This document shows positions 1,556-29,700 of a stretch of 64,000 bases of DNA, piece by piece. Both the position numbers and the translations under genes were made by a program. Location of the stretch: contig CP136061.1 of NCBI GenBank assembly GCA_032622095.1, positions 266,421,551 to 266,485,550 on the forward strand. The letters are read 5' to 3'. Position 1 is the stretch's first letter. Every line of letters begins with the position of its first letter. Origin of the DNA: Siphonodentalium dalli. Taxonomy: Eukaryota > Mollusca > Scaphopoda > Gadilida > Siphonodentaliidae. The notes under the pieces were generated by a model. It did no database searches. It was not told the origin of the DNA and saw only the letters and a list, made by a program, of their open reading frames with translations.

Positions 1556-1726
1556 ATGATATATTTAGCTGATATATTCCTTTCTTGGAGCGAATTTCTG
1601 CAACAATTTCACTGCGTAGTGTACCCATTTGGAAAACAATTACATTCCCTGTATCTAATCCTACATTTTGATATACTATACGCCCCATTATGTGGAATAT
1701 ATCAGCTGAAATTCTGTCCCGCAGAC

Positions 1727-2860: not shown

Positions 2861-3154
2861 TTCGCTCCCCTATACATATATATCCTGAACAGTTCTCTCC
2901 CCTATACATATATACCCTGAACAGTTCGCTCCCCTATACATATATACCCTGAACAGTTCGCTCCCCTATACATATATACCCTGAACAGTTCGCTCCCCTA
3001 TACATATATACCCTGAACAGTTCGCTCCCCTATACATATATACCCTGAACAGTTCGCTCCCCTATACATATATACCATGAACAGTTCGCTCCCCTATACA
3101 TATATACCCTGAACAGTTCGCTCCCCTATACATATATACCCTGAACAGTTCGCT
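2861..3154. repeat. 32-bp minisatellite, about 9 monomers, unit copy 1
   Basis: The monomer contains TTCGCTCCCCTATACATATA and TACCCTGAACAG with an exact 32-bp period and one or two variants. There are no unique spacers, so it is not a CRISPR. Read on the minus strand it contains GGGGAG, two extra bases, AACTGTTCAGGGT, very close to the FReD codons for Gly-Glu-Asn-Cys-Thr-Gly. Confidence 0.95.
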
Positions 3155-3156
3155 TT

Positions 3157-5345: not shown

Positions 5346-6504
5346 AAAACTGATAAAAATATGTTTAGCGCCAATTCCACCATATTAATATATATACACT
5401 TTCTTCTCCAATGATACGAGGAATCAAACTGTGTGGGTTAAAGACGCCACATTTGGTGCTTCTATTTGCGAATGTCTGTCTTCTATATAACTTCACTGGG
5501 GACGAAAAGGGTCTAACAGGGGTAACGGGAGCAGAAAAGGTGGAGGGCATCAAAAATGATTAAATAGTATTGTCGCCGATTTCCACCAAACTTATACATT
5601 ATATAACCATCTCCATGATGTGGCGCCGCTCGAGTCAGGGAGGAACCAAATGATAAAAAAAACAAACAGTTTTAGTGCCGATTTGCATGGTACGTTCTGA
5701 AGGAACGCGAACTGAACAATGCCATACATTGATTGTATGTATAGTATAACAGAACATACTAAATATAATCAATAGTAATTGATGGAAGCGTTTCCTGTCC
5801 TTCTATCCAAAACAGCATTATCCCAACCGAAATCCAAAGTTGTTGTGGACAGAGAAGACTTGGTCTAGAAAATAACCTGAGTTTTAAGGGGTATACCATA
5901 TAACCACCAGCATTCAGCATATGGGAGAGGGAGGTTCTGATGAGGTTTAAAGGGTATACCATATAACCACCAGCATTCAGCATATGGGAGAGGGGATCTG
6001 CAACCGGCGGAAGGTCTATAACGTTTGGTAGGTTGCTTACATTCATCGCCCAGATAGATGACAGATGACACCTTTGCACGTATGTCATTGGTCAATTATT
6101 TTTATTTCAGTCATTGTAACATAGCTATAGAAAAACAGAATAAATCTTCACTTAACAATTGCAAATAATACATATGATATAATGTTATATAATATAACAT
6201 AATATTGTACAATATAATATAATATAATATATTATGATATAATTAAATATAATACAATATACTATAATATAATATCAGAATAAAACTTCACTTTGTAAAT
6301 AATAATTGTAAATATATATCTCCGACATCGTGTGTATATACATGACTTTATGGAATCATTGATAAACATGAACATCCTGCTTGTGCATGAATCAGATCAC
6401 CCACCGGATACTCTAGATCATGCCATGAATCAGATCACCAACTGGATACTGTAGATCATGCCATGAATCAGATCACCCATCGGATACTTTTGATCATGCC
6501 ATGA

Positions 6505-7385
6505 ATCTCTACTCTGACTAACGCCCGTAGACATCATATTCCACCAATACAAAACCTGGAAGTTTTGACAGGGAGCCTTATGAAGTCATTATCTGTTCCT
6601 TAATAATGTACTTCGCTATATAGGTGAAGGTCCTAACTCGAAATGTGACATTTAACCCTTTACCCAACAAACCGGCCAAAACCGGCCAAATAAAGCTTCA
6701 ACAGCCTAAAATATCTCCGGTCTGTCTCAATAGACCATACAAATATGGATATCATTGGAACCGGCTCCTTGACCACATTGTAATAGTTACAGTAAGCCCT
6801 GTGCCAAATGCATTCTCTTATATATGCGAGTCGACCATAGGTCGCCTCGCATATATAAGAGAATGCATTGGCCTAAAAAAAATCTTTTTTTAACACTTTT
6901 TACCATTTTTTCTTACATTCTTTAACAATTTTATAATTTTTAATGTGTTAAGCCAATGCATTCTCTTATATATGCGAGGCGACCTATGGTCGACTCGCAT
7001 ATATAAGAGAATGCATTGGCACAGGGCCCTTCTGTTTGGGTAAAGGGTTAAATGACTGTGAGCGAATTTGATTTGCGTCGCTTACAATTAATGAATTTAT
7101 CCTGCGTAATTAGTTCAGTGTTTATTATGCGATATCGTCTCAGAAAAGTCAGAGAAAAGCATTAAATTTCGAGTTGGGACATTCACCTTCAGTGAGGTAC
7201 ATTACTAAGGAACAAATAATAACTAAGAAATATATTCACTGCATTATTTTTTCGATTTTATAAGATTCCCTGTCAAAACATCAAAAAGTTCCAAGGTTTT
7301 GTATACTGGTGAAATGTGATCTCTATACGGGCATTAGCCAGCGTAGAAATTCATGGCATGATCTAATACGGGCGTTAGCCAGAGT
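6505..7385. mobile_element. Foldback element interrupted by MITE B
   Basis: The stretch before the MITE (containing AGTTTTGACAGGGAGCCTTA and CCTAACTCGAAATG) is the inverted counterpart of 7,160-7,385 (containing TTTCGAGTTGGGACATTCAC and ATTCCCTGTCAAAAC). The arms are about 150 bp. It is present again at 14,022-14,902. In copy 1 only the left arm remains, because the right arm falls in the missing 2,015 bp. Confidence 0.7.
6652..7051 (+). mobile_element. TTAA-flanked MITE, copy B
   Basis: Same element as at 1,156, carried in the second 7.5-kb unit. It sits between inverted arms of another foldback (about 6,505-6,651 and 7,160-7,385), which suggests it inserted into that element before the unit was multiplied. 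Confidence 0.85.
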
Positions 7386-7586
7386 AGATATTCATGATGG
7401 CATCTACAGATACAGTTGATAGTGACGTAGGGTCACATAGCGGCTTTCAGTGATTTGGTTTGATTCACTATCAACTTTGATAAAACCAATTTGAAAAGTT
7501 AGAAATGTCATGCCTGACAATACGCGCAGAGATTGCGAATTTCAAACCGTTTTTATTGGAAAATAAGTTGAGATCGTTCTTTATTA

Positions 7587-7720
7587 TTATTCGAATCCTA
7601 TCATGAATCTCATTTGCGTCAGATAGAATATGCTGTTCGGATTACTGTAGTCTGTCCACTCGACCACGTGCGATCCAAGGATAGCATGCATATTCACCCT
7701 GAACCACAGGGGTCCGGAAA
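7587..7720 (-). pseudogene. Relic of a fibrinogen-related (FReD) C-terminus in unit copy 2
   Basis: On the minus strand a frame of about 42 codons ends in a stop at 7,587-7,589. It aligns with the end of the FReD exon at 20,110-20,260: ILGSHVVEWTDYSNPN here against IVGSHVADWPDYSTPN there, then FYLTQMRFM against YKLTQVGFM. The upstream segment for Gly-Glu-Asn-Cys-Thr-Gly is deleted, so the conserved cysteine is gone, and nothing further of the domain follows. It can be a decayed paralogue or an exon fragment copied into the unit. The open frame to a proper stop suggests the decay is not old, or that the segment is short by chance. Confidence 0.72.
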
Positions 7721-8237
7721 CAATTTATTTTAATTTTTATTATATTATTTTTTAGAAAGGTCACAGCTGCATTTTCGAGAATATGACACCAAGTTTGAGG
7801 GAATTTATTTCAAAATATCAAATGTGTTGACAGCGCTATCTCTTCCTTGAAGATCAGACTTCACAACTAATATCCATAAAATACGATAAAGAAAAACTAG
7901 TTTGAAAATTCTAATCCCAAAACTCAAAACTCGATAGATTTCGTAAAACTGTCGATCTGCCCGTCCATTTCTTTACCCAAATAGACGTCATTTATAGCAA
8001 TTTAACGCGGCCACGTGATAGTATACTCGAACGGATTGCACAAATATGTCAAAGATACTTAGCGCAACTTACCAAGAACAGACATAATTATGTTCGGGTC
8101 ACTCTAATGAAATAAATTATTCGGGTTTTATTCATTTCACAAGGCCAATCTCTGTTTGGTAGTTTCCAAAAGCTTCCATTTTGAAACAAATTTCACACCA
8201 TAATCAGCCCATGACAGCTGTAATTAATCAGAATCAG

Positions 8238-9494
8238 TTTATTGGGGACATGACAATCTGATGGGATATGGGATAGAACGACAATCTGCGGGACAGAATT
8301 TCAAATTGCGTGGGACGGCCGATATCTCGAGGAATACAGCACGTAGCGGGCTCCTTTTGGTGTCCAACGAAAGGCCCACATTCGCCCTATCCACAAATAT
8401 TAACCCCGCCACTGATCAGACACCAGAAGTTGCATTATTTGGTCGACAACTGACCTAACAGGAGATGGAATATGGAATAAAACGACAATCTGCAGGACAG
8501 AATTTCAAATTGCGTGGGACGGCCGATATCTCGAGGAATATAGCACGTAGAGGGCTCCTTTTGGCGTCTAACTAAAGGCCGATATTCGCCATAGCCACAC
8601 ATATTAACACCGCCACTGACCGGACACAAGAAGTTGCATTATTCGGTCGACAACTGACCTAACATGAAATTGTCGAAATCAAGGCCGTGGAACAGCGTGG
8701 AACAGCTGTAGAAATGCATTTTTACAGCGATAACGCTATGACCACAAGCAAACTTGGTATTAAAATGAAGTTTATCATATATTGCACAACACAAATCTAT
8801 TAATTCGAGCGAAGCTGTGATTTATGCACATCTAGAGACCGATTAACCCACACATGCGAAGGTGCCACGAAACACGGAAAACTGCGTTCGACATCAATGT
8901 TTAGAATTTAGATTTTTCGATGAATACGCTAGCAAACAACAAGTTTTAGGTATCAAATAACGCAGTGGAATGCTGCGCACTCGTTTTAGTACGAATACTG
9001 TAATGGCGAACACGCAATCACGCGCCGATAAAAAAAGCTAAAATAGACTCGATGTTTACAATTACAGGATCGATTTCAGCTGATATATTCCTTTCTTGGA
9101 GCGAATTTCTGCAACAATTTCACTGCGTAGTGTACCCATTTGGAAAACAATTACATTCCCTGTATCTAATCCTACATTTTGATATACTATACGCCCCATT
9201 ATGTGGAATATATCAGCTGAAATTCTGTCCCGCAGACTATCGTTCTATTCCATATTCCATCCCATGTTAGGTCAGTTGTCGACCAAATAATGCAACTTCT
9301 CGTGTCCGGTCAGTGGCGGGGTTAATATTTGTGGATAGGGCGAATGTGGGCCTTTCGTTAGACACCAAAAGGAGCCCTCTACGTGCTGTATTCCTCGAGA
9401 CATCGGCCGTCGCACGCAATTTGAAATTCTGTCCCGCAGATTGTCGTTCTATCCCATAGCCCATCCCATCCCGCAGATTGTCATGTCCCGTTTA
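8238..9494. mobile_element. Large foldback element with about 230-bp arms, unit copy 2
   Basis: The left side holds two direct copies of a block of about 203 bp (8,257-8,457 and 8,460-8,660, each with GGACGGCCGATATCTCGAGG). The right side, 9,227-9,494, is the inverted copy, ending with the complement of the left end (GGGGACATGACAATCTG against CAGATTGTCATGTCCC). A smaller inverted pair, CAGCTGATATATTCC at 9,069-9,089 and its complement near 9,207, lies inside. No transposase is seen. The short ORFs on these arms follow from the repeat. Confidence 0.75.
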
Positions 9495-10377
9495 TTGCAA
9501 AAGCTATGAATTAACACAGATAACATGTATGATATATACAAGTGTGTACAATAGCAGGCAACTCGTGGGTACAATATATACATGTTTGATTCAGCGATCT
9601 GACCTCTTTAACGAGACGTCATGCGAAGCCGAGATCAATTCACTGCAGCGATAACATGTTATTATATGACATGCTTTTTATTTGAAAAGCACAATTGATT
9701 ATGAAATTAAACCACACGTAGGCAACTAGTAACAAGAATAAAGAATGAACTATTTTTGTATAATTAATCGTCCGGCTTTTTTACGGACATGCGCAGTATA
9801 CGCGAGATAGAGAATGGTGGTATGACATCGGATCAAACTGCAGCTGATCCGATGGTCGGGAAATGATCGCTTTACTATAGCGGTATTGTTGGAGAAAAAC
9901 GATAGTCATATAATGAATACTCATGCCAGATCTATATTTATAATATATATATTATTTATATATATCAACCCCAATGTGATTGGTGCAAATCAGCTACCTT
10001 TATTATAATTCACCAGTATAGCCATTCTCGGTTGGATAGCCAGATTTTTGGTGAAATGTGTGTTATATTTTATGGGCATTTTATCTGATTCGATTTGGAC
10101 GGGGACACAGACATTTTTGAACATTGTTGAACAATCAATCAGGATTAGAATTTGGGATTGGATTTTCTCGAACTTTTTTCTCCCTATTATATTTTTGGAT
10201 GTTAGTTTTGAACAAAATTTGTAAAGAAGTTTTAGAGCTGTAGCTGTAGCAAAACTAATAATTTGAAAAATTACATGTTTGAAGCTATTTTCCCCAAAGT
10301 TGGTATTATTTGCTCGAAAATCCAGCTGTGACCATTCCAAATATCATATAATAAATTTTTGTTTAATTCTTTGAAGG

Positions 10378-10671
10378 TTCGCTCCCCTATACATATATAT
10401 CCTGAACAGTTCTCTCCCCTATACATATATACCCTGAACAGTTCGCTCCCCTATACATATATACCCTGAACAGTTCGCTCCCCTATACATATATACCCTG
10501 AACAGTTCGCTCCCCTATACATATATACCCTGAACAGTTCGCTCCCCTATACATATATACCCTGAACAGTTCGCTCCCCTATACATATATACCATGAACA
10601 GTTCGCTCCCCTATACATATATACCCTGAACAGTTCGCTCCCCTATACATATATACCCTGAACAGTTCGCT
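10378..10671. repeat. 32-bp minisatellite, about 9 monomers, unit copy 2
   Basis: Identical in monomer, copy number and variant order to the array at 2,861-3,154. It directly precedes the LINE remnant. Confidence 0.95.
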
Positions 10672-10673
10672 TT

Positions 10674-12160
10674 ACGTGCTTCATCAAATATGGTAAATCA
10701 TTGTCAAGGGAAATCAAAATATTACAAGGCACGCGACAAGGGATTATTTTATCCCCCCTTCTATACATGTTGTATATAGATGATCTTTTATCTGAACTCG
10801 AGTTATCGAACTATGGCCTTCGGATTGTCTCCACAAACTGCGCGTCGCCAACTCACGCTGATGATATGACGCTTTTTTCGCTCACAAATGTGGGCCTACA
10901 ACGTCTATGTGATATTTGCACGCTGTACAGCCGATTGTGGCGGTTTACATACAACGCACAAAAATGTAAAACCATTGTATTCAATGAAAAAGTGAAGAAA
11001 CTACCTGTGCATCCAAGGAGATGGAAACTTGGTGACGGGTATGTTGACGAAACTGATCACATAACCCATCTTGGCATAACGTTGCATAGAAACGACTTCG
11101 CTCGTGAGTTTATCGACTGTATTGTCAACAAAATAAGATCCACCTACTTCATGCTGAGCAACGCTGGCATGTATGCAGGTGGAATCACTCCTCAAAGTTG
11201 CGAAACTCTTTACAGATCCATAATTATTCCAAAGGGTTTATACGGATCTGAACTCTTGTGTGGTCTATCAGAAACCCATTGGTCAACTCTTGAGAAAATT
11301 CATCGCTTCTGCCTCAAGCATATCCAGGGACTTCCTGTACGTGCTCGCACTGATATCGTTTTGGGGATGCTTGGCATCCATCCTATCAAGTCATTGATTG
11401 ATGCCAGGAAACTCAATCTGTTTGGAAGCCTATGCCGTATGCCTCCTGGCAAAGCTTGCAAGGAGATTTTTGTCACAAGACTTCACATGTACTTCACGGG
11501 ACAACTGATAAACCCAAATGCGTTCATCAGCGACATAACAACACTCTTGTTGAATACAACCTATCCGAGCATATCCATCAGTATGCTCATTTCTGCTCAT
11601 TTCCTCTGAAATCCGAATGGAAGCGCATTACAAAAACTGCGATTAACGACAAATGCGAACAGAAATGGACAGAAAGAACAAATTGTGACACTTCATTTGC
11701 GCGTTTTCGAGAAATTCAACCAAACCCTACTATGTGTCACTTGTGGAGAACATGTCGTAAATACCCTACGCATAAGATTGCATTTATCACAGTCGGTCAG
11801 CTCATCGCAGGAAGCGCATTCTCGCAACATAACACATGTACATTATGCTGTCAGTCACACTCTGATATTATCGAGCACGCACTTATCTCATGCAGTAGCC
11901 CACTTATGCATTCCCACAGGAACGAAATGTGGTACCAGATGATTGATCGTTTCGGCATACCGTTATTCGTATGGGCCACGAGTCTCCGCAACAGCGACCT
12001 CTTATTGCTTCATCTCACACATCTTCCACGTGATATATTCACATTTCTTCAGCAAGTTGAGAACACCTCAGAGTTTACGAGATTCATTGTTCTTCACACA
12101 AACTTAATTTGGAGGGGCTATGTCGAACTCTCAGCCACTACGCATGACGGTTTGTGTTAA
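10674..12160 (+). pseudogene. Non-LTR retrotransposon reverse transcriptase, frameshifted (copy 2)
   Basis: Same truncated and frameshifted reverse transcriptase as at 3,157-4,643. Both copies carry the identical 5' break and the identical frameshift, with at least one silent A/G difference. The element was therefore already dead when the 7.5-kb unit was multiplied; this is a passenger copy. There is no third copy because the last unit ends before this point. Confidence 0.88.
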
Positions 12161-12862
12161 ACAACCTTTGATCTTTGAACGTTACGGGTGTTCACCCTAA
12201 GTCGCATTTAAATGTACCACCTTCTGTCCTGTCCATAAAATCCGAAGACGCGACAAAATAAATAAACATGAATAAATTAATATATATATATGCATATGTA
12301 TGTGTATATGAGGGTGCGTGTGGGTGTGTATGTGTGTGTGTGAGGGTGTATACGTGCGTGTATATGTGTTCTTGTGTTAGCGTTTGCACTGTCACAACAT
12401 CATTCTACATATAATCTATTCCACTTAATGGGTGCATACGTTTACAGGGGAGCTATTGTCGAGCGAGGGCATTGCGTTTGCTGACTCTTTGGGGAGAGAG
12501 ATTCTCCTATGCGAATCCAACTCCAACTAGAGTTCCTTTTGTAACTGTATGCACCTGCTTATGGAGTGCTGTTGTGACAGTGCATCCTAACGTATGTATG
12601 TACGGTTGTGTGTGTGTGTCTGCGTAATGTGTTAGATTGCATATGCGTACGGGTGTGGTCGAGAGGGTGTGTGTTGTCTGTTGATGTGATATGTAAGCTC
12701 GTGTTCATGTACATACAATTAGAATGCTATTCTTTTCCTCGGTAGTTTGTTCTCTTGTCTGTCTTTTCATTACTTCTTGATTGCTAACTGTATTTATGTT
12801 TCATTCATGTACCCTATGTATTTTTTTCAATCTTCAATACTGGAGGCAATAAAGATATATAT
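10674..12862 (+). mobile_element. 5'-truncated LINE including 3' UTR (copy 2)
   Basis: Same as 3,157-5,345, offset by 7,517 bp. Confidence 0.75.
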
Positions 12863-14168
12863 AAAACTGATAAAAATATGTTTAGCGCCAATTCCACCAT
12901 ATTAATATATATACACTTTCTTCTCCAATGATACGAGGAATCAAACTGTGTGGGTTAAAGACGCCACATTTGGTGCTTCTATTTGCGAATGTCTGTCTTC
13001 TATATAACTTCACTGGGGACGAAAAGGGTCTAACAGGGGTAACGGGAGCAGAAAAGGTGGAGGGCATCAAAAATGATTAAATAGTATTGTCGCCGATTTC
13101 CACCAAACTTATACATTATATAACCATCTCCATGATGTGGCGCCGCTCGAGTCAGGGAGGAACCAAATGATAAAAAAAACAAACAGTTTTAGTGCCGATT
13201 TGCATGGTACGTTCTGAAGGAACGCGAACTGAACAATGCCATACATTGATTGTATGTATAGTATAACAGAACATACTAAATATAATCAATAGTAATTGAT
13301 GGAAGCGTTTCCTGTCCTTCTATCCAAAACAGCATTATCCCAACCGAAATCCAAAGTTGTTGTGGACAGAGAAGACTTGGTCTAGAAAATAACCTGAGTT
13401 TTAAGGGGTATACCATATAACCACCAGCATTCAGCATATGGGAGAGGGAGGTTCTGATGAGGTTTAAAGGGTATACCATATAACCACCAGCATTCAGCAT
13501 ATGGGAGAGGGGATCTGCAACCGGCGGAAGGTCTATAACGTTTGGTAGGTTGCTTACATTCATCGCCCAGATAGATGACAGATGACACCTTTGCACGTAT
13601 GTCATTGGTCAATTATTTTTATTTCAGTCATTGTAACATAGCTATAGAAAAACAGAATAAATCTTCACTTAACAATTGCAAATAATACATATGATATAAT
13701 GTTATATAATATAACATAATATTGTACAATATAATATAATATAATATATTATGATATAATTAAATATAATACAATATACTATAATATAATATCAGAATAA
13801 AACTTCACTTTGTAAATAATAATTGTAAATATATATCTCCGACATCGTGTGTATATACATGACTTTATGGAATCATTGATAAACATGAACATCCTGCTTG
13901 TGCATGAATCAGATCACCCACCGGATACTCTAGATCATGCCATGAATCAGATCACCAACTGGATACTGTAGATCATGCCATGAATCAGATCACCCATCGG
14001 ATACTTTTGATCATGCCATGAATCTCTACTCTGACTAACGCCCGTAGACATCATATTCCACCAATACAAAACCTGGAAGTTTTGACAGGGAGCCTTATGA
14101 AGTCATTATCTGTTCCTTAATAATGTACTTCGCTATATAGGTGAAGGTCCTAACTCGAAATGTGACAT

Positions 14169-14568
14169 TTAACCCTTTACCCAACAAACCGGCCAAAACC
14201 GGCCAAATAAAGCTTCAACAGCCTAAAATATCTCCGGTCTGTCTCAATAGACCATACAAATATGGATATCATTGGAACCGGCTCCTTGACCACATTGTAA
14301 TAGTTACAGTAAGCCCTGTGCCAAATGCATTCTCTTATATATGCGAGTCGACCATAGGTCGCCTCGCATATATAAGAGAATGCATTGGCCTAAAAAAAAT
14401 CTTTTTTTAACACTTTTTACCATTTTTTCTTACATTCTTTAACAATTTTATAATTTTTAATGTGTTAAGCCAATGCATTCTCTTATATATGCGAGGCGAC
14501 CTATGGTCGACTCGCATATATAAGAGAATGCATTGGCACAGGGCCCTTCTGTTTGGGTAAAGGGTTAA
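14169..14568 (+). mobile_element. TTAA-flanked MITE, copy C
   Basis: Same element in the third 7.5-kb unit. It is identical in position within the unit, so it is a passenger copy and not an independent insertion. Confidence 0.85.
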
Positions 14569-15103
14569 ATGACTGTGAGCGAATTTGATTTGCGTCGCTT
14601 ACAATTAATGAATTTATCCTGCGTAATTAGTTCAGTGTTTATTATGCGATATCGTCTCAGAAAAGTCAGAGAAAAGCATTAAATTTCGAGTTGGGACATT
14701 CACCTTCAGTGAGGTACATTACTAAGGAACAAATAATAACTAAGAAATATATTCACTGCATTATTTTTTCGATTTTATAAGATTCCCTGTCAAAACATCA
14801 AAAAGTTCCAAGGTTTTGTATACTGGTGAAATGTGATCTCTATACGGGCATTAGCCAGCGTAGAAATTCATGGCATGATCTAATACGGGCGTTAGCCAGA
14901 GTAGATATTCATGATGGCATCTACAGATACAGTTGATAGTGACGTAGGGTCACATAGCGGCTTTCAGTGATTTGGTTTGATTCACTATCAACTTTGATAA
15001 AACCAATTTGAAAAGTTAGAAATGTCATGCCTGACAATACGCGCAGAGATTGCGAATTTCAAACCGTTTTTATTGGAAAATAAGTTGAGATCGTTCTTTA
15101 TTA

Positions 15104-15237
15104 TTATTCGAATCCTATCATGAATCTCATTTGCGTCAGATAGAATATGCTGTTCGGATTACTGTAGTCTGTCCACTCGACCACGTGCGATCCAAGGATA
15201 GCATGCATATTCACCCTGAACCACAGGGGTCCGGAAA
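15104..15237 (-). pseudogene. FReD C-terminal relic in unit copy 3
   Basis: Same relic as at 7,587-7,720, shifted by 7,517 bp, with the same deletion of the cysteine motif and the same stop. It is absent from unit copy 1 because it falls within the missing 2,015 bp. Confidence 0.72.
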
Positions 15238-15754
15238 CAATTTATTTTAATTTTTATTATATTATTTTTTAGAAAGGTCACAGCTGCATTTTCGAGAATA
15301 TGACACCAAGTTTGAGGGAATTTATTTCAAAATATCAAATGTGTTGACAGCGCTATCTCTTCCTTGAAGATCAGACTTCACAACTAATATCCATAAAATA
15401 CGATAAAGAAAAACTAGTTTGAAAATTCTAATCCCAAAACTCAAAACTCGATAGATTTCGTAAAACTGTCGATCTGCCCGTCCATTTCTTTACCCAAATA
15501 GACGTCATTTATAGCAATTTAACGCGGCCACGTGATAGTATACTCGAACGGATTGCACAAATATGTCAAAGATACTTAGCGCAACTTACCAAGAACAGAC
15601 ATAATTATGTTCGGGTCACTCTAATGAAATAAATTATTCGGGTTTTATTCATTTCACAAGGCCAATCTCTGTTTGGTAGTTTCCAAAAGCTTCCATTTTG
15701 AAACAAATTTCACACCATAATCAGCCCATGACAGCTGTAATTAATCAGAATCAG

Positions 15755-17011
15755 TTTATTGGGGACATGACAATCTGATGGGATATGGGATAGAACGACA
15801 ATCTGCGGGACAGAATTTCAAATTGCGTGGGACGGCCGATATCTCGAGGAATATAGCACGTAGCGGGCTCCTTTTGGTGTCCAACGAAAGGCCCACATTC
15901 GCCCTATCCAAAAATATTAACCCCGCCACTGATCAGACACCAGAAGTTGCATTATTTGGTCGACAACTGACCTAACAGGAGATGGAATATGGAATAAAAC
16001 GACAATCTGCAGGACAGAATTTCAAATTGCGTGGGACGGCCGATATCTCGAGGAATATAGCACGTAGAGGGCTCCTTTTGGCGTCTAACTAAAGGCCGAT
16101 ATTCGCCATAGCCACACATATTAACACCGCCACTGACCGGACACAAGAAGTTGCATTATTCGGTCGACAACTGACCTAACATGAAATTGTCGAAATCAAG
16201 GCCGTGGAACAGCGTGGAACAGCTGTAGAAATGCATTTTTACAGCGATAACGCTATGACCACAAGCAAACTTGGTATTAAAATGAAGTTTATCATATATT
16301 GCACAACACAAATCTATTAATTCGAGCGAAGCTGTGATTTATGCACATCTAGAGACCGATTAACCCACACATGCGAAGGTGCCACGAAACACGGAAAACT
16401 GCGTTCGACATCAATGTTTAGAATTTAGATTTTTCGATGAATACGCTAGCAAACAACAAGTTTTAGGTATCAAATAACGCAGTGGAATGCTGCGCACTCG
16501 TTTTAGTACGAATACTGTAATGGCGAACACGCAATCACGCGCCGATAAAAAAAGCTAAAATAGACTCGATGTTTACAATTACAGGATCGATTTCAGCTGA
16601 TATATTCCTTTCTTGGAGCGAATTTCTGCAACAATTTCACTGCGTAGTGTACCCATTTGGAAAACAATTACATTCCCTGTATCTAATCCTACATTCTGAT
16701 ATACTATACGCCCCATTATGTGGAATATATCAGCTGAAATTCTGTCCCGCAGACTATCGTTCTATTCCATATTCCATCCCATGTTAGGTCAGTTGTCGAC
16801 CAAATAATGCAACTTCTCGTGTCCGGTCAGTGGCGGGGTTAATATTTGTGGATAGGGCGAATGTGGGCCTTTCGTTAGACACCAAAAGGAGCCCTCTACG
16901 TGCTGTATTCCTCGAGACATCGGCCGTCGCACGCAATTTGAAATTCTGTCCCGCAGATTGTCGTTCTATCCCATAGCCCATCCCATCCCGCAGATTGTCA
17001 TGTCCCGTTTA
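15755..17011. mobile_element. Large foldback element, unit copy 3
   Basis: Same structure as 8,238-9,494 with a few substitutions. Copy 1 keeps only the right arm, at about 1,727-1,983. Confidence 0.75.
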
Positions 17012-17894
17012 TTGCAAAAGCTATGAATTAACACAGATAACATGTATGATATATACAAGTGTGTACAATAGCAGGCAACTCGTGGGTACAATATATACAT
17101 GTTTGATTCAGCGATCTGACCTCTTTAACGAGACGTCATGCGAAGCCGAGATCAATTCACTGCAGCGATAACATGTTATTATATGACATGCTTTTTATTT
17201 GAAAAGCACAATTGATTATGAAATTAAACCACACGTAGGCAACTAGTAACAAGAATAAAGAATGAACTATTTTTGTATAATTAATCGTCCGGCTTTTTTA
17301 CGGACATGCGCAGTATACGCGAGATAGAGAATGGTGGTATGACATCGGATCAAACTGCAGCTGATCCGATGGTCGGGAAATGATCGCTTTACTATAGCGG
17401 TATTGTTGGAGAAAAACGATAGTCATATAATGAATACTCATGCCAGATCTATATTTATAATATATATATTATTTATATATATCAACCCCAATGTGATTGG
17501 TGCAAATCAGCTACCTTTATTATAATTCACCAGTATAGCCATTCTCGGTTGGATAGCCAGATTTTTGGTGAAATGTGTGTTATATTTTATGGGCATTTTA
17601 TCTGATTCGATTTGGACGGGGACACAGACATTTTTGAACATTGTTGAACAATCAATCAGGATTAGAATTTGGGATTGGATTTTCTCGAACTTTTTTCTCC
17701 CTATTATATTTTTGGATGTTAGTTTTGAACAAAATTTGTAAAGAAGTTTTAGAGCTGTAGCTGTAGCAAAACTAATAATTTGAAAAATTACATGTTTGAA
17801 GCTATTTTCCCCAAAGTTGGTATTATTTGCTCGAAAATCCAGCTGTGACCATTCCAAATATCATATAATAAATTTTTGTTTAATTCTTTGACAG

Positions 17895-18537
17895 TTCGCT
17901 CCCCTATACATATATACCCTGAACAGTTCTCTCCCCTATACATATATACCCTGAACAGTTCGCTCCCCTATACATATATACCATGAACAGTTCGCTCCCC
18001 TATACATATATACCCTGAACAGTTCGCTCCCCTATACATATATACCCTGAACAGTTCGCTCCCCTATACATATATACCCTGAACAGTTCGCTCCCCTATA
18101 CATATATACCCTGAACAGTTCGCTCCCCTATACATATATACCCTGAACAGTTCGCTCCCCTATACATATATACCCTGAACAGTTCGCTCCCCTATACATA
18201 TATACCCTGAACAGTTCGCTCCCCTATACATATATACCCTGAACAGTTCGCTCCCCTATACATATATACCCTGAACAGTTCTCTCCCCTATACATATATA
18301 CCCTGAACAGTTCGCTCCCCTATACATATATACCCTGAACAGTTTTCTCCCCTATACATATATACCCTGAACAGTTCGCTCCCCTATACATATATACCCT
18401 GAACAGTTAGCTCCCCTATACATATATACCCTGAACAGTTCGCTCCCCTATACATATATACCCTGAACAGTTCGCTCCCCTATACATATATACCCTGAAC
18501 AGTTCGCTCCCCTATACATATATACCCCAAACAGTTC
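17895..18537. repeat. 32-bp minisatellite, about 20 monomers, end of tandem array
   Basis: The expanded version has variants TTCTCTCCCC, TTTTCTCCCC and TTAGCTCCCC scattered through it. The last monomer reads CCCCAAACAGTTCTATCCG and continues in register into the FReD exon scrap at 18,535-18,569. Confidence 0.95.
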
Positions 18538-18569
18538 TATCCGAACCACCAGCCCGAGCCCGTCATCTT
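18535..18569 (-). pseudogene. 35-bp FReD exon scrap with nonsense codon
   Basis: Read on the minus strand it gives Met-Thr-Gly-Ser-Gly-Trp-Trp-Phe-Gly-stop-Asn, the same as the intact FReD exon (MTGSGWWFGEN) except that the Glu codon has become TAG. It sits at the end of the minisatellite and in register with it. Confidence 0.75.
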
Positions 18570-18724
18570 TCTATCATTTTAATTCAGTCATTGGAACAGA
18601 ACATCAGACTAAACTTCTAAGTTGTAATTATTAATAATAATACATGGTAAATATATCTCAAGCAGACGTCGTGTCAGTGTATTTCTTTATTGAATATGGA
18701 ATATATTTAAATATATATGAAATG

Positions 18725-19217
18725 TTTTAAACGACGTGCAGAAATTATTCTACATTGAACGTGCCATCAACGAATTGAATTCATTACCGAAACTTGCCAT
18801 TTAAGCAGGCCATCTCAATGCACTCAAATATTTCATAGACTCGTTTGTCAATGATAGAAAATATCTGTTGATTATTTAGATATTAGTGTGTGCCTACTTT
18901 TTGCTATCACCAAATATTATGTTTCAAAAGACGTGCAGAAATTATTATTCACAGAGTGTGCCATCAATGAATTGAATTCATCACCGAAACTTGCTATAAA
19001 TGCAAGTCATCTCAATACATTCAAATCTTTCATAGACTCTTTCTTCTATGATCGAAAGTATCTGTTTGACGATGTGGATTTTTTCAACATTAGCTTGGGC
19101 CTACTTTTTGCTGCTGTATTACCAAAGTGTTTTTTTTTAGCCGGGACGATCAACGTTGGAGAGACTTGTCTCGCAGTGTTTAATGATGATGATGATGATG
19201 CTGATATATATATATGA
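18725..19217 (+). pseudogene. Two tandem LINE reverse-transcriptase C-terminal tails
   Basis: Two diverged copies (18,725-18,905 and 18,921-19,217) of a block starting with GACGTGCAGAAATTATT. The second keeps an open frame with INELNSSPKLAINASHLNTF and SFIDSFF, which fits the conserved closing segment of CR1/L2-type LINE ORF2 proteins (pattern I-x-x-WN-x-LP-...-SLN-x-FK). It ends in a GAT-trinucleotide run, a typical tail of such elements. The first copy has stops in frame. Confidence 0.6.
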
Positions 19218-19755
19218 ATATTGTCAATCGTGACAAAAACAATAGAATAGTTACATGTAGCAATAGTTAATTTCATACCTACAATATTTTGAGACCGTTC
19301 TGATATTATGAACTTTGCAGCCAATATTTAGGTTATAATGTGTCGTTTTAAAACTATTGGTCGAAAATGTTCAATTTCGAACCGGGACAAAAAGTCGAAC
19401 GACTTGCCTCGTAGTCTGTAATGGTGATGATGATGCTGCTGCTGATGATGATGATGATTATGACGACCACGATGATGATACATACATGAACATCCTGTAT
19501 GGGCATGATCCAGACCACTCAAATGACACAATTAGCCGATGTTAGGCACAGGGACATAGCAGCTGGGATTTTATTTGTCCAACTATCAACTTTGATAAAA
19601 TTGTTCAACAAAATGTCAATCATGACAAAAACAACAGCAATATTTAATTTCATACCAAAAATATCACGAGATCGTTATGATATTCTGAACTTTGGAATCA
19701 AAATTCAATAGCTAGGTAAGAATGTGTCGTTTTTAAGCTATTGGTCGAATATTTT
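19206..19755. repeat. Pair of 150-bp direct repeats
   Basis: 19,206-19,355 and 19,608-19,755 share the order GACAAAAACAA, AATTTCATACC, GAGACCGTT/GAGATCGTT, AATGTGTCGTTTT and CTATTGGTCGAA. Both also resemble 7,470-7,600 of the 7.5-kb unit (ACTATCAACTTTGATAAAA, GAGATCGTT), so this region is an older relative of the unit. Confidence 0.65.
19380..19490 (+). repeat. GAT/GCT trinucleotide microsatellite tail
   Basis: GATGATGATGCTGCTGCTGAT-type run after GTAGTCTGTAATGGTGATG, matching the closing segment of the LINE tail at 19,160-19,205. It encodes a fortuitous poly-Asp frame. Confidence 0.65.
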
Positions 19756-19764
19756 GCAAACATT

Positions 19765-19890
19765 TCAAAATACGTGCAGAAATTCTTATTCACATAACGT
19801 GCTATCAACGATTGGAATTCATCACCGAAACTTGCGTGTAATGAAAGTCTTCTCAATTCACTCATATATTTCATAGACTAGTTTTTCGTT
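19765..19890 (+). pseudogene. Third LINE C-terminal tail fragment
   Basis: TACGTGCAGAAATTCTTATTC, then GGAATTCATCACCGAAACTTG, then TTCATAGACTAG parallel the tails at 18,725 and 18,921. It is more broken and shorter. Confidence 0.5.
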
Positions 19891-20109
19891 TTTAGATTGA
19901 AATGGCGATCTATTGGAAACGGTTCAGCCATAATGGGGTGTTAGGTTAGAAACCCAACACAAGGAGGCTGGTGACAATGAAGTTTTTCTGAGGTTAGGAA
20001 TTTGATTATTCAAGAGGATTGGTGGGGTGTAGTTAGAAATCCAAAATCGGACACCGCAACAAAAACCCTCAGCTACGTCCCTGGTTGGATGGAGTGGAAC
20101 ATTGCCATC

Positions 20110-20777
20110 TTATCCGAATCTCACCATGAACCCTACTTGTGTCAGTTTGTATATGGTGTTTGGGGTAGAGTAGTCTGGCCAGTCAGCCACGTGCGATCCA
20201 ACGATATATGGCGTATGCAGATTGACCCCTGTACAGTTCTCCCCGAACCACCATCCCGAGCCCGTCATCATGGCACACCCTCCACAGTCGTTGTCGTATG
20301 CGCAAAAGCGGGAGCCGTTGATGCTTCCGGGAGACAGGTATGTTCCATCATCAAATCCATTGGCCAGAGGTAGTGTGGGATGCGGATACGAGTCTCCGTA
20401 ATGTATTGCGAATCCTTTCTCTTCATTGTCGATGTTGAAATTCTTGTAATATCTCTGATGGTTGCTCAAAGATCCCATGATGGTTAACATAAATGGCCCT
20501 CTTGCTGTTATATCTGATATTTTCTGAAGACCAATGAAGTAGTCCCCCGGCGACGCTGCGTGGATGTCCCCAAAGCCATCTTTGTACTCGGCCCATGATC
20601 TGTTGAAGTCTAGTGGTGGATTTGTATCGTATCGCCGAAGCTCCAGAAATGTCCAGCCACCATACCCAAGCATGCAGTAAACCTCAAATGGGGTTCCAGA
20701 AACCGCGGGCTTTATCGTTTTAAACCCAATCCCATTTCCTGGCCACACCCAACCACCAATGCTGATCTCACTGCAAT
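20110..20777 (-). CDS. FReD gene exon 3: fibrinogen C-terminal domain
   Basis: After acceptor CTTCTTCAG the split codon gives Asp, then CSEISIGG. Family landmarks in order: FEVYC (Cys 179), GGWTFLELRR, DFNRSWAEYKDGFGD, GDYFIGLQKI, HYGDSYPHP, NGFDDGTYLSP, the cysteine cluster at 303, 309 and 312, SGWWFGENC (Cys 326), then a C-terminal LTQVGFMVRFG and TAA. Total 222 residues, the usual FReD size. The calcium/ligand loop is altered: two extra cysteines (309, 312) sit where most FReDs have DND...C. A longer open frame extending to 20,880 runs into the intron and the MITE and is not used. Confidence 0.88.
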
Positions 20778-23700
20778 CTGAAGAAGAATGTTTACATATA
20801 ATGCGCTTATAATTTGTAACTTTAAAATATTTTCGGATTTTGTGGACATTCATTAACCCTTTACCCAACAAAACGGCCAAAACCGACCAAATAAAGCTTC
20901 AACAGCCTGAAATATCTTCGGTCTGTCTCAATAGAACCATACAAATATGGATATCATTGGAACCGGCTCATTGACCACATTGTGATGGTTACAGTTATGC
21001 CCTGTGCCAATGCATTCTCTTATATATGCGAGTCGACCATAGGTCGCCTCACATATATAAGAGAATGCATTGGCCTAAAAAAAATATTTTTTTAACACTT
21101 TTTACCATTTTTTCTTACATTCTTTAACAATTTTATAATTTTTAATGTGTTAAGCCAATGCATTCTCTTATATATGCGAGACGACCTATGGTCGACTCGC
21201 ATATATAAGAGAATGCATTGGCACAGGGCCGTTCTGTTGGGTAAAGGGTTAACATAACGACGCTGTCGGTCTCTCATGTGTTCGATGAACTTTGATTGAA
21301 ACTGTCTCTATGGGTATAGCTGAAGAATATATTATCTGTGACAAAATTCCAAAGAATATTGCTTTGATTTTTGGGAACGGAAAGTTTACCCTTATATTAC
21401 CGGCCACGAAGAGCACCAGCTAGTCCGCGGAGTTTAGCTAATCTTTCAAAATTGGACTCCAATCTTAAATTTTTTAATAAACGTCGTATGTCATGTGGTT
21501 TTACCGCATTAATTCACCAAACATTGCATGAATCCCTGTCGGCTCCTGACGTTTTTTGCTGTAAAAATCTCAAAATCACATTGAAACCGTTCTTAAAGAT
21601 GGAATATCTCTTTCTAATTACGTTTTATATAGCGTCCGGGGTATGCACTACTAAATATGAATCGAAGACACCTGTCCGAAACGCTTCTATCAATTAATAT
21701 TGATTTTGTATCGATATTTTCTAACATAATGCGATAATTAATTGGGATGTTGTTCGGTACTAATTAAAGGTGGATTATCTCTTTGTAAACATGTATTATA
21801 TAGTTACCGGGGTATAAAATATTAGATTTGAATCGAAGACTCCATAATTAATTTTATTTCGAATATTTTCTGGTCTAAAAAGGTGTGTTTGTTCAGCTAA
21901 CGAACAATAGTGGTTACTGTTAACAGAGACCAGAAATTATATTGTGCAATTTTGTCACAAATAAACGTTAATTATACTCATTATCGCTTATATCTGTGGA
22001 ACAAAACAGTACAAACAACCAATCTGTGACATTTGACATTCGTTGCGTAGCCGTAGGAACAGCCCAGTGCTCTATATCGCAATACGGTCTCATCCGAATG
22101 GAATATTAATTGATAGAAGCTATTCCGGACACGGGTCTTCAGTTCATATCTATTATTTTATACCCACGCAACTATTTAAAATTTGTTATTTAAAAAGATA
22201 ATCCATCTTTAACAGCAAACCGTCATGCCATTTCATAACGTTCAGGCCATTATATATCTATATGAACGTTTCATGGCGGTTTGCTGTTAATTTCTGACTT
22301 TGATTTTCACCGGGCTTTTTGCATATGGTTGGATGTGAAATCCCGCCGTATTTTGTATTAATGCTTCACATGAATTGATCAGTTTGTGCGATATAACGCA
22401 TACCTATGTTCGTATAATATTGTTTTTAAAGTTGTTTTTGTGTTGCTTTAGTTATGTTTTCATTCTGAGAAACAAATAAAGTTTAAAACAAAAATTTTAG
22501 TCATTAATTGTGAAGCGCCGAGAAAATGAGGATTTAATTAGGCCAAAGTTTATTTAATTTGGCCAAAAAACATTTGGTCAAAGTTTTTTTCATTTGGCTA
22601 ATAAAAGTTTCCTTTGGCTAAACTATTGGCCACAACATTTTTCGGTCCAGCGCGAACACTGGATATATAGTTTCCCCGCTTGCTACGCTCCCAACTTTTC
22701 CGCCAGCCGTAAAATGTTCCAAATTGATGTTTATGGGGAAGATAACTGTGATCGGAGATACTAGTTAGATGTGAATGATATTTCTAGGATTTAATCACAT
22801 GAAACGAGGGATTACATCATGCATACTTAAATGTGAGACAGCATTTGTTACAAGTCTTTAATCAACATATCCTGAAATTCTGATGCACCCAGTAAAATTG
22901 TGAAGATTAATACCATTGGTACATTGTCCGACAATCTGATATTTTCTTGTGTGCTCTTCGGACGAAAAACCAAACCATTCTAGCTGATGCATCAGATATC
23001 GGATTCAGTAACTTGTTCGTGCTTGAGAAAGAGAACAAACATTGGAAAACAGCGTATTGTGTGCTATCGAACCGGAAGATATTAACACCGAACCGGATAC
23101 CAAAAGCAGAACCAGATGCTATCGGTTGCGGCCTGTGAATCACATACACAACAACAGAAAGAACATTCTTCGTAATTCAGAAGTTTATCACGCAAAACTA
23201 TGAAAATGCATGTATATATTCATTTACGACGAAGATCAGCGCAATTTGTCAATGTGCTAATATAGCCTAAATGAATTAGCCTTTACTCACTGTGCGAATC
23301 GTGGAAAGCAAATGTGGTGTTTACGTGCTTACCATATGGATATCTCTCACAGAATGGTCCCATGAAGTAAGGGTCACATCCCTGACAACTCTGAACAGAT
23401 TGGTCCCAGACCCCACCGTTCTGACAATCAGGCATTTTCTGTGAACATAAATAAGTAAAGAAAGAACTAGAAGAGATTGCGGTGCACACAATCATGTAAA
23501 ACAATCATGTAAATCAACCATGTAAAACAATCATGTAAAATAATCATGTAAAAACAATCACACAGAACGCTGATTGGTGTTTCCACTATTTTCATTTCAG
23601 AAGTCGCGAAGTCCAAATGATATGATGTTGAAGAGCGTGAACATAGTTAGTTACCTAAGTCGTTTTAAGAAGTTAATTAATCGTTGTAACGAGTAACCTG

Positions 23701-26700
23701 AGTCATTACAAGAAAAATGGTTAGTTACTAACGTGTTATAATGATTTGGCAAGATCTTTGCAAGAAAAAAAGTTAGTCACTAAATCGTTATAACCAGTTA
23801 GTAACTAAATGTGAACTTATAGAGGTTTTTAAAATTATTTCTTTCATCCGCAAATCCAACAAACACAAAATCAATTTCTAAGAAATAATGCTGTCTTCGT
23901 TTTTGTTCGATTTAGGGACGAACGAAATACTTTTTAAAACCTCTATACAGTTCAGATCTTGTTGTTCTAAGATAATCCATCACGAATTATACTTTTAAAA
24001 TGGCGCATTGGCTTGGTTACTGTGATTAATAATATAATATATTTTCAGCATTGCGGGCTAGCCAGCAGATTGCATGCTTGTGTTCACCTCAATGCCACCA
24101 CCCCACCCCCACCCCCGAAATATACCTGCATTTGTGACATCTGTGTCGACACCAGTAGTCGACATTTTGACTGCAGCATATTGAAAATTGTTAACTTAGA
24201 TGTAATCTAGATGTCGGTCATATACATACTATAGAACTATTTGTAACACTAAACTGACCCGAAAGAGCTCAAAATATCATGTTACCCAATTGCCTAGCAT
24301 GTACACGTAGTGCACATAGGTCTCCTAAATTCATCAGAATAAAAAACAGAACGGCCCTGTGCCAATGCATTCTCTTATATATGCGAGGCGACACTGGCTT
24401 AACATATTAAAAATTATAAAAATGAAAGAAAAAATTATAAAATTGTTGTAAGAAAAAATGGTAAAAAGTGTTAAAAAAATATTTTTTTAGGCCAATGCAT
24501 TCTCTTATATATGCGAGGCGACCTATGGTCGACTCGCATATATAAGAGAATGCATTGGCACAGGGCATAACTGTAACCATCACAATGTGGTCAATGAACC
24601 GGTTCCAATGATATCCATATTTGTATGGTGTTATTGAGACAGACCGAAGATATTTTAGGCTGTTGAAGCTTTATTTGTGCGTTTTTGGCCGGTTTGTTGG
24701 GTAAAAGGGATGCTGAAATATATATCATGATGGAAAGTGACGTGGTGCCCATATCTCGTGACGTGGCGCCCATATCTCGTGACGTGGCGCCCATATCTCG
24801 TGACGTGGTGCCCATACCTCGCCCGTTGTCTCCAGCCCATAGATCGAATGTGTCTAAATAGATCAGCTCATAAAGTGATATTCACACATCAACTAGTTAC
24901 TTATGTACGTTTGTGCATGAAATAGAGAAGTGTGTGTGTGTGTGTACTTAGATATACAAAACAAATTTTAACCGTTTGTATATTAAATGGATTTTTCAAT
25001 TCACTTGTAAAATTATACAACGGAATGGTTTATTATTCATTTGGAGGGATGTTAAGGTAAACGCAGACGACAGATAAATAAAAGTGCAGAAGGATTCCTA
25101 TTTACTGTAAGTTATAAGTTAAACAAATGACCTATGGTCGTTTGTTGAATTATTATCTGAACATTCCTATGCGATAGTACTCATCAATGATGCTTTAGTA
25201 TAGAAAGGGTTAAACTTATTATCTGAACATTTCCTATACGATAACTTCTCATCAATGCTAGTTTAGTATAGAAAGGGTTAAACCTATTATCTGAACACTT
25301 CCTATCGGATAGTACTCATCAATGATGCTTTAGTATAGAAAGTGTAAACTTATTATCTGAACATTTCCTATGCGATAACTACTCGCCAATGATGCTGTAG
25401 TATAGAAAGGGTTATACTTATTTTCTGAACATTTCCTATGGGATAACTTCTCATCAATGATGCTTTAGTATAGAAAGGGTTAAACTTATTATCTGAACAT
25501 TTCCTGTGGAATAACTTCTCATCAATTATTCTTCGGTATGGAAAGGGTTTAAGAAACCAACGCCATCGACTACAACAGCTTCAATCTATGAACCTCATTA
25601 TCTGTATAGCATAGCAGCACAATATGAAAATTATGGATTATCAAGGACAGCTTATAAACGGAATCAGTTACCAACACTGGTGTAGCCTCTTACCGACGCC
25701 CATACAATATACGTGTCACAATATAGAATTTTCGGAATAATTTTCAAGTATAAACATACCGAGGTTATTGGTGACTGACACCAGATATATAACAACTATC
25801 AACGACGAAGTCTGAACAATGTAATTCGAGATTCTATAACGTAGAACAATTTTCCTTGTATTAGTGACAGGTAAGTTTGCGATCGCGGTGCTTGAAAATG
25901 TTTTCAAGTCACACTCGACATTATATCCATCGATTTGTTGTACTAGCTATCGCTGCGAGCACGTTTGGAATCCGAGCCTAAGCACCTTTTGCTCCCTAAT
26001 CTGGCCAACACAATGGCCAATAGCTCTGGTTTATCAGTATCCAGCTTGCGATACCTTATCGGGCCCCATAAGCTATAGTTAAATATCAATCTACAATGTC
26101 ACAAATTATATTTCCCTTTAGATAGTGTATATATAGTTTTGAATTTGTATGAAAGCAGTTCCTTCCTGTATCTTTTAAAATTGTTTTTGAAGTCAGTTAA
26201 TGGACTCGCGACAGGTCATTGCGAACTAAGATATATTATGTCCCTGCACCGTTCGTCCTTATTATTTTCGAATTACCAGTCGCTCGTCCATTAATCCTGA
26301 ATTAGTAAATCAACAGAATATTGATAACGGTTTTCACGTGACACTTGTCACATGTAGATAAAAATCGAAACTTTGGCGGCCATCTAGGATTGCGCAGAAA
26401 ATCTCAAAATGTTTCATCCTGTCTGTCAGCTGTTCACAAAAGATATTCAGGGGTACCGAAGTTATTGTAATAAGGCAAGAAGAAAAAAAATTCCATTCAC
26501 CAAAAGTATGGGTAAGTTTCATAAAAGAAACTTATGACATTGTTGGGACTTAATATGGTGTTAAGTTAAACCTTCAGCCATAATTGCTTTTCATGAATAA
26601 CACCACGTTCACATTTTGGGCAAGAAAATAGCAGGTATGAACCATGCGAATTACTTGACCAATGAAATTATACAATATAATACAATGAAAATAACACATG

Positions 26701-29700
26701 AATTTCACCGACGGAGACAAAGCACTTCTATTTTATCGCTGGTGGGTGATTTGTGTTCATCTAGATTTGTGGTCATTTATATCCATTAAATAATCTCTAT
26801 GATCATATTGCTGGTGTTAAATTTCCAACTAATTTTGTGCCAGGTATGAAATTTCCAATTGTTGAAAACATTGACCGCATGTAGTTGGAGGGAGACACCC
26901 TGTGTCGCCACACTCCTGTATATTTGGTAGCTATATATCACAGCCCCATGAACCAAACCAAAACCACAACTCTTTAAACTTCTTATGGTGTCTCGATGGG
27001 ATGGGGTATTCGGATTTTCCAAAAATCAAACATAATCACTTTTGCCACCCCATATATGTATTTACCATTGAATTATAATATAGGCATGTACAAATTTCCA
27101 AATAAAGTGCCCACTTTCTTATTTCGACCGGTTTGGAAGGTCTCTATTCATAAGTTCAACAACTTGGCGACATAGGTGGCATATAAGTATCTGCAAGAAA
27201 ATATCTGAAAGAAAATATCAGGTAACTTTGTGCCGTGATATTTGATTGCTGCAAGGAACACACCTGTGAGAACGCGGTGATTTAGATGGCGATGATTGAA
27301 CTCAATCAGAACAGCATTAGTCGTCATGGTAACATGACGTCGCATCAGTGCTATCAGGTCGTAACCTCAATCAGAACAGCATTAGTCGCGCTGGTGCAAG
27401 TGAATTGCGTCTGGTGAACAACATATAGTCCATATTGGCAATTCATAGAATTATGAAATATTTAACTGTTGAAATTTATTACCGAAGTCGGAGTGGGATG
27501 AAGCACCCAAACACCTGTCGCGACGTTGATACTCTCATGTATAAAGACATTCTATATAAAGAGAACGTGCATGGTCACGTTATTTGGAAATAAGTACACG
27601 CCTATCTTATAATTTAATAGTACATGCATATATCGGGTAACAAAAGTGATTATTTTTTTGTGGCAAATATGTTACCCCAACCACATTAAGACCATGTGAA
27701 GTTTTCTAGAGTTGAGGATTTGGTTCAGTTCGTGGGTCTATGGTGTATATCACCTTACCTAATATTATATGTACAAGCTTCACTCTACTATCGGATTTTG
27801 TGGTTTAAGCCCCACCCCACCCATAATATCCATAAATTGCTCCAAAGAACTGAGTTGTAATAAACAATATATATCTACACGTCCCGATTATCCATTAAAG
27901 TTGATATATATCGTACCATACATTCTTTGTCGTCAGTTCATAAATAATTTATGTTCGGTCGAGACCGACGAGTTATAACATAAGATTCGTACCCAGGTTA
28001 GCCGCTAGATCCAGCTATATATATATATATTTTGTACAAAGGCGAAAACAATAGACAAATATATCTATACTAATAAAACTCAATCTTGTTTGTTGGTTTG
28101 TGCGCTGGGGTTTTTTGTCTGCCTGTCGGGATATGGGCGACCAAACTGCTGGACCAACGGAACTTAAAATATATACACGTGGGTCAATTGACTCGGGGAC
28201 TGCCAGTGGATAGGTTGACGTCAGATGTCTTAAAGGTCACTGATATATTTAACTAAATAATTAAACATATACCCAAAATGGTTGGAATCTGGTCCTTGAA
28301 AATTGACTCACAGTGGTAAATTGACCCGATGAGTATCATGTGACAGGTGCCGTTGACATCTGACGACTAAAGTGGCTATAATAAACAATTCTATATAGTA
28401 GAGTCGCTTATGTACTTCCGCGTGAATTTTTGGAACAAATGTAGAAACTATGATTTTATGATAGGGTATCACTTACATTGTCGGACAAAAATTGTTAGAC
28501 TTCATGGGTCCGCGACTGGAAGGAATTATGACGTCACAAAAATGACGTTATTGTCAGTTCAGCTCAGATGTCGGGCTGTCCTAAGAACTGACAAATTCTG
28601 CCCATATTTCTTAACTGTTATGCTTTTTTTTCATTAAGGGCAATTCATCAATAGTTAATCTCCATGTTGAGTACCCAAATTCACGCAAACATGATATTCC
28701 AGTCAAAGATGGCTGCCAAAATGGCAGCCGAAAATCAACAATTTTCAAGAATCTCATGTAAATGACCTTCCTTTTGTAGCGACTGCGAATTGTGACAATT
28801 CAGCGTTTACTTATTGATTCAGCAATGTAGTGCACCAATGTATTATACAAAACATGTTCGATCTGTCAAACATCCACTTTAGACAATGGAATTATAGCAT
28901 TTTGTCAAAAATTTATACCAATATTCTGGTAACAGATTTTAAAAAATGAGCGGAATTCAGTGACGGGGGGGGATATTCGTGCCACATTTATTATCACACT
29001 TGAACAGAACTGTTCAATTTCATCCAACATGGCTACCAAATTGGCTGTCAAAATAGAAAAGTCAGTTTTCGGTACAACACCAAATGTTGCCATGACATTC
29101 CACCATGGTAAACCAGGATAATCGGCTAATTTTAATTAAATGCGCATAGCTTTAATTTCTTATACTGCATGCGTGTCATATCTTCAAATTGCCTGATATT
29201 AAGCGAGAAGGGAGTTGAAGAGAAAACCCAACTCTCTGTATGGAATTAGAAAGTATTGTAGACCTCCATCTTAGATTGAGGGGCAAGTGTTACCATCCCG
29301 ATGTCTAGCCTTCTACGCTCTAAGCCAGAGTACTAATTGAGAAATATTGGTGGTTACCATATCAAATGGCAATTGGTAATGGATATACGTGTTGGTGTTA
29401 GTTCTTTTAATGATATCTCCTCAGTAGAAAATGCCTATTGTGTATCATATAAGGTAGCAATACACAACTGTTTATTGTCGTATTGGCAAGCTAGAAACAA
29501 CACATCCTTGTTGATAAAACTCAAACAGTAGTAGAATTAATTATATGGCTGTCATTTGGCCTCTTTGTCTCACTGTTAGTAGCGCTGTAACCTTGAATTA
29601 AATTTGCATTGTAACACCATTTGATCCCTGTTTAGCTTAACTTAGCAGGTTTCAATCGTATTGATAACCATGATAGATCAAAATAGAATAGACCCCCATA

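Follow-up and report, generated by a model that had tools for sequence, protein, structure and literature searches.

A 32-bp minisatellite in the genome of the scaphopod Siphonodentalium dalli very probably arose by expansion in place inside a decayed FReD exon, because collinear scraps of a FReD exon are present on both sides of the array, the joins to both scraps are in register, and the monomers share sequence changes with the 3′ scrap. The window analyzed was the whole stretch of 64,000 nucleotides at positions 266,421,551–266,485,550 of contig CP136061.1 (assembly GCA_032622095.1), and all coordinates given below are positions within it. The original prediction that a paralogous FReD exon fragment had been amplified into the minisatellite was supported by the 3′ scrap, which was found to be in register across an insertion, and by three changes that this scrap shares with the monomers.

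The Minisatellite and Its 32-bp Unit

17891–18537, minus strand: 32-bp minisatellite, 20.2 copies, with the minus-strand unit GGGGAGCGAACTGTTCAGGGTATATATGTATA

Tandem Repeats Finder gave a period of 32, 20.2 copies and 97% matches for this array, and placed its start at 17891 rather than at 17895, as had been claimed. Minisatellites consist of near-identical head-to-tail units of approximately 10–100 bp in tens of copies, and this organization was found at 17891–18537. Fourteen of the 19 full units of this main array were identical to the consensus GGGGAGCGAACTGTTCAGGGTATATATGTATA. The change in four of the five variant full units was in a 2-bp insert located between GGGGAG and AACTGT on the minus strand (AG twice, AA and CT, compared to CG in the consensus). 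Since some units carry GGGGAGAGAACTGT, this insert may repeat the AG in front of it. The period of 32 bp is no multiple of three, which is consistent with a missing coding constraint.

Two more arrays of the 32-bp monomer were found in the window, at 2860–3154 and 10377–10671. A 13-base core of the monomer (AACTGTTCAGGGT) had 32 exact occurrences in the window, all of them within the three arrays, and the intermediates with two or three units that had been proposed as a check were not seen in the window.

Exact searches with the 32-base monomer in bacterial and archaeal genomes and with a 21-base part of it in viral contigs gave 0 matches each; these collections do not contain animals, and the results are hence uninformative. 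No minisatellite derived from a FReD exon was described in any of the titles and abstract openings listed by literature searches, and we make no claim that such an array is unreported.

Other tandem repeats in the window included a 45-bp satellite at 36861–38592 and 50950–64000 (38.5 and 291 copies, respectively). A 68-bp relative of this satellite was present at 25150–25549 and looks like the 45-bp unit with approximately 23 bp added.

The Intact FReD Gene and Its Similarity to the Monomer

20110–20779, minus strand: open FReD (Fibrinogen_C) exon of an intact paralogue (PF00147, E 3.4e-22), ends set by eye
23331–23438, minus strand: possible upstream cysteine-rich, EGF-like exon of the intact FReD gene, found by eye; no Pfam match

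The exon string GGGGAGAACTGTACAGGGGT at 20225–20244 (minus strand) was the sole match in the window at up to 3 mismatches. The 18/20 identity first noticed between monomer and exon holds as a count (1 mismatch, 1 gap) once the 2-bp insert has been omitted, and as sole evidence it would be weak. For the whole monomer, 25 of 30 aligned bases were identical to the intact exon when counted from the alignment. The score of this match (15) was reached by 10 of 2000 circular dinucleotide shuffles and by 21 of 2000 mononucleotide shuffles, which is modest if taken alone. The same score was obtained in 5 of 280 overlapping 669-base segments of the window, of which two represented the FReD exon and three came from two other places. 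As the 3′ scrap is in register and shares changes with the monomers (see below), the alignment to FReD covers approximately 30 of the 32 monomer bases and thus extends beyond the 18 that were first matched.

Monomer-like places in 42085–42753 and 25719–26721 were set aside, as they showed scattered gaps and no FReD match. A weak tblastn match at 45891–45947 (E 0.045) was not accepted as FReD.

A palindromic, MITE-like repeat of approximately 400 bp was found in six places (1156–1555, 6652–7051, 14169–14568, 20853–21252, 24345–24717, and 35737–36125). Five of the copies were 87–96% identical to the one at 20853–21252, which is located in the presumed intron of the FReD gene. This presumed intron also contains an imperfect palindrome of approximately 620 bp at 21593–22212 (61% over 655 columns). 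In the region 18710–19137, a segment from the 3′ flank of the intact gene (19704–19896) was present in two degenerate tandem copies (approximately 74–76% alike), and these copies sit between the intact FReD gene and the pseudogene scrap. Besides, an open frame at 36225–36704 (minus strand) showed sub-threshold matches to the PAN domain (E 0.023 and 0.024).

FReD Scraps on Both Sides of the Array

18513–18567, minus strand: 5′ FReD scrap and array edge unit (MTGSGWWFG, TAG, then AACTGT into the array), aligning with exon 20269–20214
15104–15216, minus strand: 3′ FReD scrap (VNMHA--ILGSHVVEWTDYSNPNSIFYLTQMRFMIGF), aligning with exon 20228–20110 (tblastn E 3.5e-9)
7587–7699, minus strand: duplicate of the 3′ FReD scrap in the preceding duplicated unit (self-comparison and tblastn)

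As predicted, the array was shown by alignment and by a register test to run in register into a FReD scrap at its right end, and this scrap does encode MTGSGWWFG followed by a TAG in place of the Glu codon (GAG) of the gene. Its translation, MTGSGWWFG-stop-NCLG, corresponds to FReD residues 173–186 (tblastn E 1.6e-4). On DNA level, 18570–18538 aligned with the exon at a score of 25 (dinucleotide-shuffle maximum 16 in 2000), and 18570–18513 at a score of 35 (shuffle maximum 18 in 2000). The similarity of the 5′ scrap to the FReD exon is thus beyond chance. The 30 bases past TTCGG, compared with the continuation of the exon, gave a score of 7, which was reached by 2 of 20,000 mononucleotide shuffles. 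When rotations of the consensus were compared with the exon, the three best of 32 (scores 11, 11, and 9) fell within 2 bases of the actual register. The edge unit is less exon-like than these rotations of the inner consensus, and this is a counterpoint to an origin in place, for which one might expect an ancestral edge unit to resemble the exon more closely. The region 18562–18723 also showed similarity to 588–752 (63%, AT-rich).

The 3′ scrap showed 73% identity to exon 20228–20110 over 119 columns in a sensitive self-comparison of the window, with a score of 54 compared to a dinucleotide-shuffle maximum of 20 in 1000. Its protein match by tblastn corresponds to FReD residues 187–223. The two scraps are collinear and on the same strand, one on each side of the array, and since their protein matches adjoin, they would be the halves of one broken exon. 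At DNA level, 15 exon bases were matched by both scraps; when the scraps were aligned apart with the monomer part trimmed, exon index 547–551 was left uncovered. When they were joined after removal of the array, the insertion, and the short stretch preceding TCAGGG, they aligned with exon index 510–669 at a score of 84, with no indel at the join and the nearest gap, of 1 base, three bases further on.

The Insertion and the Left-Hand Join

15235–17889, no strand assigned: insertion of approximately 2.65 kb that separates the array from the 3′ scrap and has long, imperfect inverted repeats at its ends
15235–15484, plus strand: left inverted-repeat arm of the insertion (65.9% over 264 columns)
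17613–17889, minus strand: right inverted-repeat arm of the insertion, whose end adjoins the array's last partial unit GGGGAGCGAACTGT

The terminal inverted repeats of the insertion comprise approximately 250 bp at 66% identity, an ungapped comparison gave 64 bp at 78%, and further internal repeats are present inside it. A Pfam scan found no domain above the cut-off, and no transposase, in any of the 21 stop-to-stop segments of at least 50 aa; the two matches obtained (E 0.08 and 0.025) were both below the cut-off, and neither was to a transposase. The insertion could be a non-autonomous element, and the label transposon was not applied. No clean target-site duplication was detected by eye, with CTGT present at both edges. 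Owing to extra bases (CTGTGG) in the 3′ scrap beside the insertion, there is no clean empty site.

The array's last partial unit, GGGGAGCGAACTGT, stops at AACTGT at the edge of the insertion, and after a few extra bases the 3′ scrap resumes with TCAGGGTGAATATGCATG. The missing part of the monomer, TCAGGGTATATATGTATA, was identical to the 18 bases of the 3′ scrap from TCAGGG at 14 positions, whereas the next best of the 32 rotations matched at 8. A match of 14/18 was reached by none of 20,000 mononucleotide shuffles, and among 20,000 circular dinucleotide shuffles by 2 in that register and by 13 in any register. This test and that of the right-hand join were both framed post hoc from alignments already seen, and TCAGGG was likewise selected as the starting point in this way. 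When the monomer and the 3′ scrap were aligned locally without a fixed register, the evidence was weaker: the score of 13 was reached by 19 of 2000 shuffles of either kind (dinucleotide or mononucleotide). Similarity at ATATATGTATA is cheap because this stretch is AT-rich.

Chance likeness between the monomer and the exon, with the array and the FReD scraps unrelated, appears highly improbable. Two unrelated places in the window do equal the exon's match to the monomer, but the register tests use different sequence on each side and were rarely reached by shuffled sequences (2 of 20,000 in both), though framed post hoc.

By-eye comparison of the alignments showed three features common to the monomers and the 3′ scrap and different from the intact exon: a change of A to T (TGT-T compared to TGT-A), a G run shorter by one G, and a change of C to A in a CTG codon. 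These three shared changes place the monomer with the pseudogene rather than with the intact gene. The monomer and the 3′ scrap differ from each other at 4 of 18 positions.

The shared changes also bear on the possibility that microhomology-mediated repair at AGAACTGT linked a FReD fragment to a pre-existing minisatellite, e.g., one at the end of the inverted-repeat element. Such an origin would fit with the array adjoining the right end of the element, with the small amount of sequence that array and 5′ scrap have in common directly at their join, and with the modest similarity of the monomer to the exon and to the scrap in free searches. However, it leaves unexplained the in-register continuation of the cut monomer in the 3′ scrap, the adjacency of the two scraps in their protein matches, and the changes common to monomers and 3′ scrap; besides, no array sequence was found in the 36 bases between the left arm of the element and the 3′ scrap. 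We therefore consider a pre-existing array unlikely, and expansion inside the decayed exon is preferred.

The sequence AACTGTTCA runs unbroken over the insertion point in all 19 full units of the main array and likewise in the full units of the other two arrays. As full units thus span this point, at least one tandem duplication probably predates the insertion of the element.

Weak homology was found to extend into the 3′ flank (19656–19554 compared to 15065–14952, 65.8% over 114 columns), which suggests that the pseudogene is a duplicate of the FReD gene plus some 3′ flank. Its frame is broken by the TAG in the 5′ scrap and by the shorter G run. No pseudogene counterpart of the 5′ part of the FReD exon was found in the window at an E cut-off of 0.05.

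Segmental Duplication With a Junction Inside the Array

3155–10671, no strand assigned: 7517-bp tandem segmental duplication unit, left edge at a reverse-transcriptase fragment and right edge inside the array
10672–18188, no strand assigned: next 7517-bp unit, 9 mismatches to the unit at 3155–10671
2860–3154, minus strand: shorter array copy, 9.2 units, ending at the reverse-transcriptase fragment junction and not at FReD
10377–10671, minus strand: second shorter array copy, 9.2 units, with the same reverse-transcriptase junction as 2860–3154

At the duplication junction, the interior of the array is joined to a reverse-transcriptase fragment (PF00078, E 4.7e-11). The two shorter arrays therefore seem to end at the duplication breakpoint, and only the main array seems to keep the original FReD-side end. 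The unit at 3155–10671 is preceded by a partial duplicated unit. In a comparison of 1–3154 with 5497–10671, this partial first unit was found to be without approximately 2 kb of the second, including the 3′ FReD scrap, with the break near 1559/7055.

Five of the nine mismatches between the two 7517-bp units are located in the last 297 bases, which comprise array and edge, and four in the other 7220. In addition, the T-variant unit of the main array is the third full unit from the insertion, and that of both shorter arrays is full unit 7. These two observations suggest that the array region evolves faster than its surroundings.

Long near-identical repeats are often misassembled, and the tandem 7517-bp units differ at 9 bases only. 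It is conceivable, although we think it rather improbable, that an assembly artefact, e.g., duplicated haplotypes, accounts for part of the repeated blocks, including the lengths of the arrays and the 7.5-kb units themselves. Against this, the order of variant units is not the same between the arrays. An artefact of this kind would be compatible with expansion in place, as the claim of origin rests on one unit and is independent of the number of 7.5-kb units; the scraps flanking one array would be unaffected.

Proposed Origin of the Array

How a minisatellite arose is often difficult to trace, as the parent sequence has been lost. Here, the unexpanded parent sequence seems to have been kept on both sides of the array, so that we can propose what the first unit was, where it was bounded, and in which order the events are likely to have taken place, i.e., gene duplication, decay, tandem duplication, element insertion, and segmental duplication. 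Duplication of a FReD gene would first have produced a copy in the same orientation, which probably included part of the 3′ flank. This copy would then have decayed, with its 5′ part missing, a stop, and a shorter G run. A stretch of approximately 30–32 bp that covers the Gly-Glu-Asn-Cys-(Thr/Ser)-Gly codons and a few more beyond them would have been tandemly duplicated in the dead exon, and slippage or unequal exchange may have expanded it to approximately 20 near-identical units. The inverted-repeat element was most likely inserted in the terminal unit, between AACTGT and TCAGGG, and would thereby have split the array and the 5′ scrap from the 3′ scrap. A later tandem duplication of approximately 7.5 kb with one breakpoint inside the array would have given rise to the shorter arrays.

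In the Haber and Louis 1998 model, as presented in PMC6947457, a first duplication occurs between flanking repeats of 5–10 bp and is followed by expansion. The array studied here is similar to that model, as far as it is outlined in PMC6947457, in that ordinary local sequence appears to have been duplicated and expanded, with the unexpanded parent beside the array. It differs from the model as outlined there in that the intact paralogue is without 5–10-bp flanking repeats and the parent is a pseudogene exon. Direct repeats of 5–10 bp that could bound the unit were absent from the intact exon at periods 28–35, the longest being 2 bp; the ancestral sequence of the pseudogene is gone. Minisatellites derived from transposable elements (Alu, B1, LTR, and others) are also described in PMC6947457. 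As in the cases described there, a recognizable parent sequence adjoins the array; unlike in those cases, the parent is a gene exon, and the nearby element interrupts the end of the array and looks an unlikely source. For the Sp185/333 immune genes of the sea urchin, short tandem repeats and segmental duplications around them are described in PMC5103432. The FReD locus is similar to what is described there in having tandem repeats both next to duplicated genes and where segmental duplications end, and differs from it in that the short tandem repeats of Sp185/333 surround genes, whereas here the duplication junction lies inside a gene-derived minisatellite.

The best interpretation of the array is that it is a side effect of the loss of constraint in a pseudogene, and no function is proposed for it. 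General knowledge of FReD genes and of minisatellites is unchanged by this array; the birth of minisatellites from ordinary local sequence is already known, and the present array is an unusually legible example from a protein-coding exon. We tentatively raise the further idea, to which we give a low probability, that a minisatellite formed from dead FReD coding sequence has become a breakage point that drives segmental duplication in a FReD locus. If this were true, the decay of one gene copy would seed copy-number change nearby. The array is a good case for studying how a first duplication occurs without evident flanking repeats, and whether the resulting array promotes breakage.
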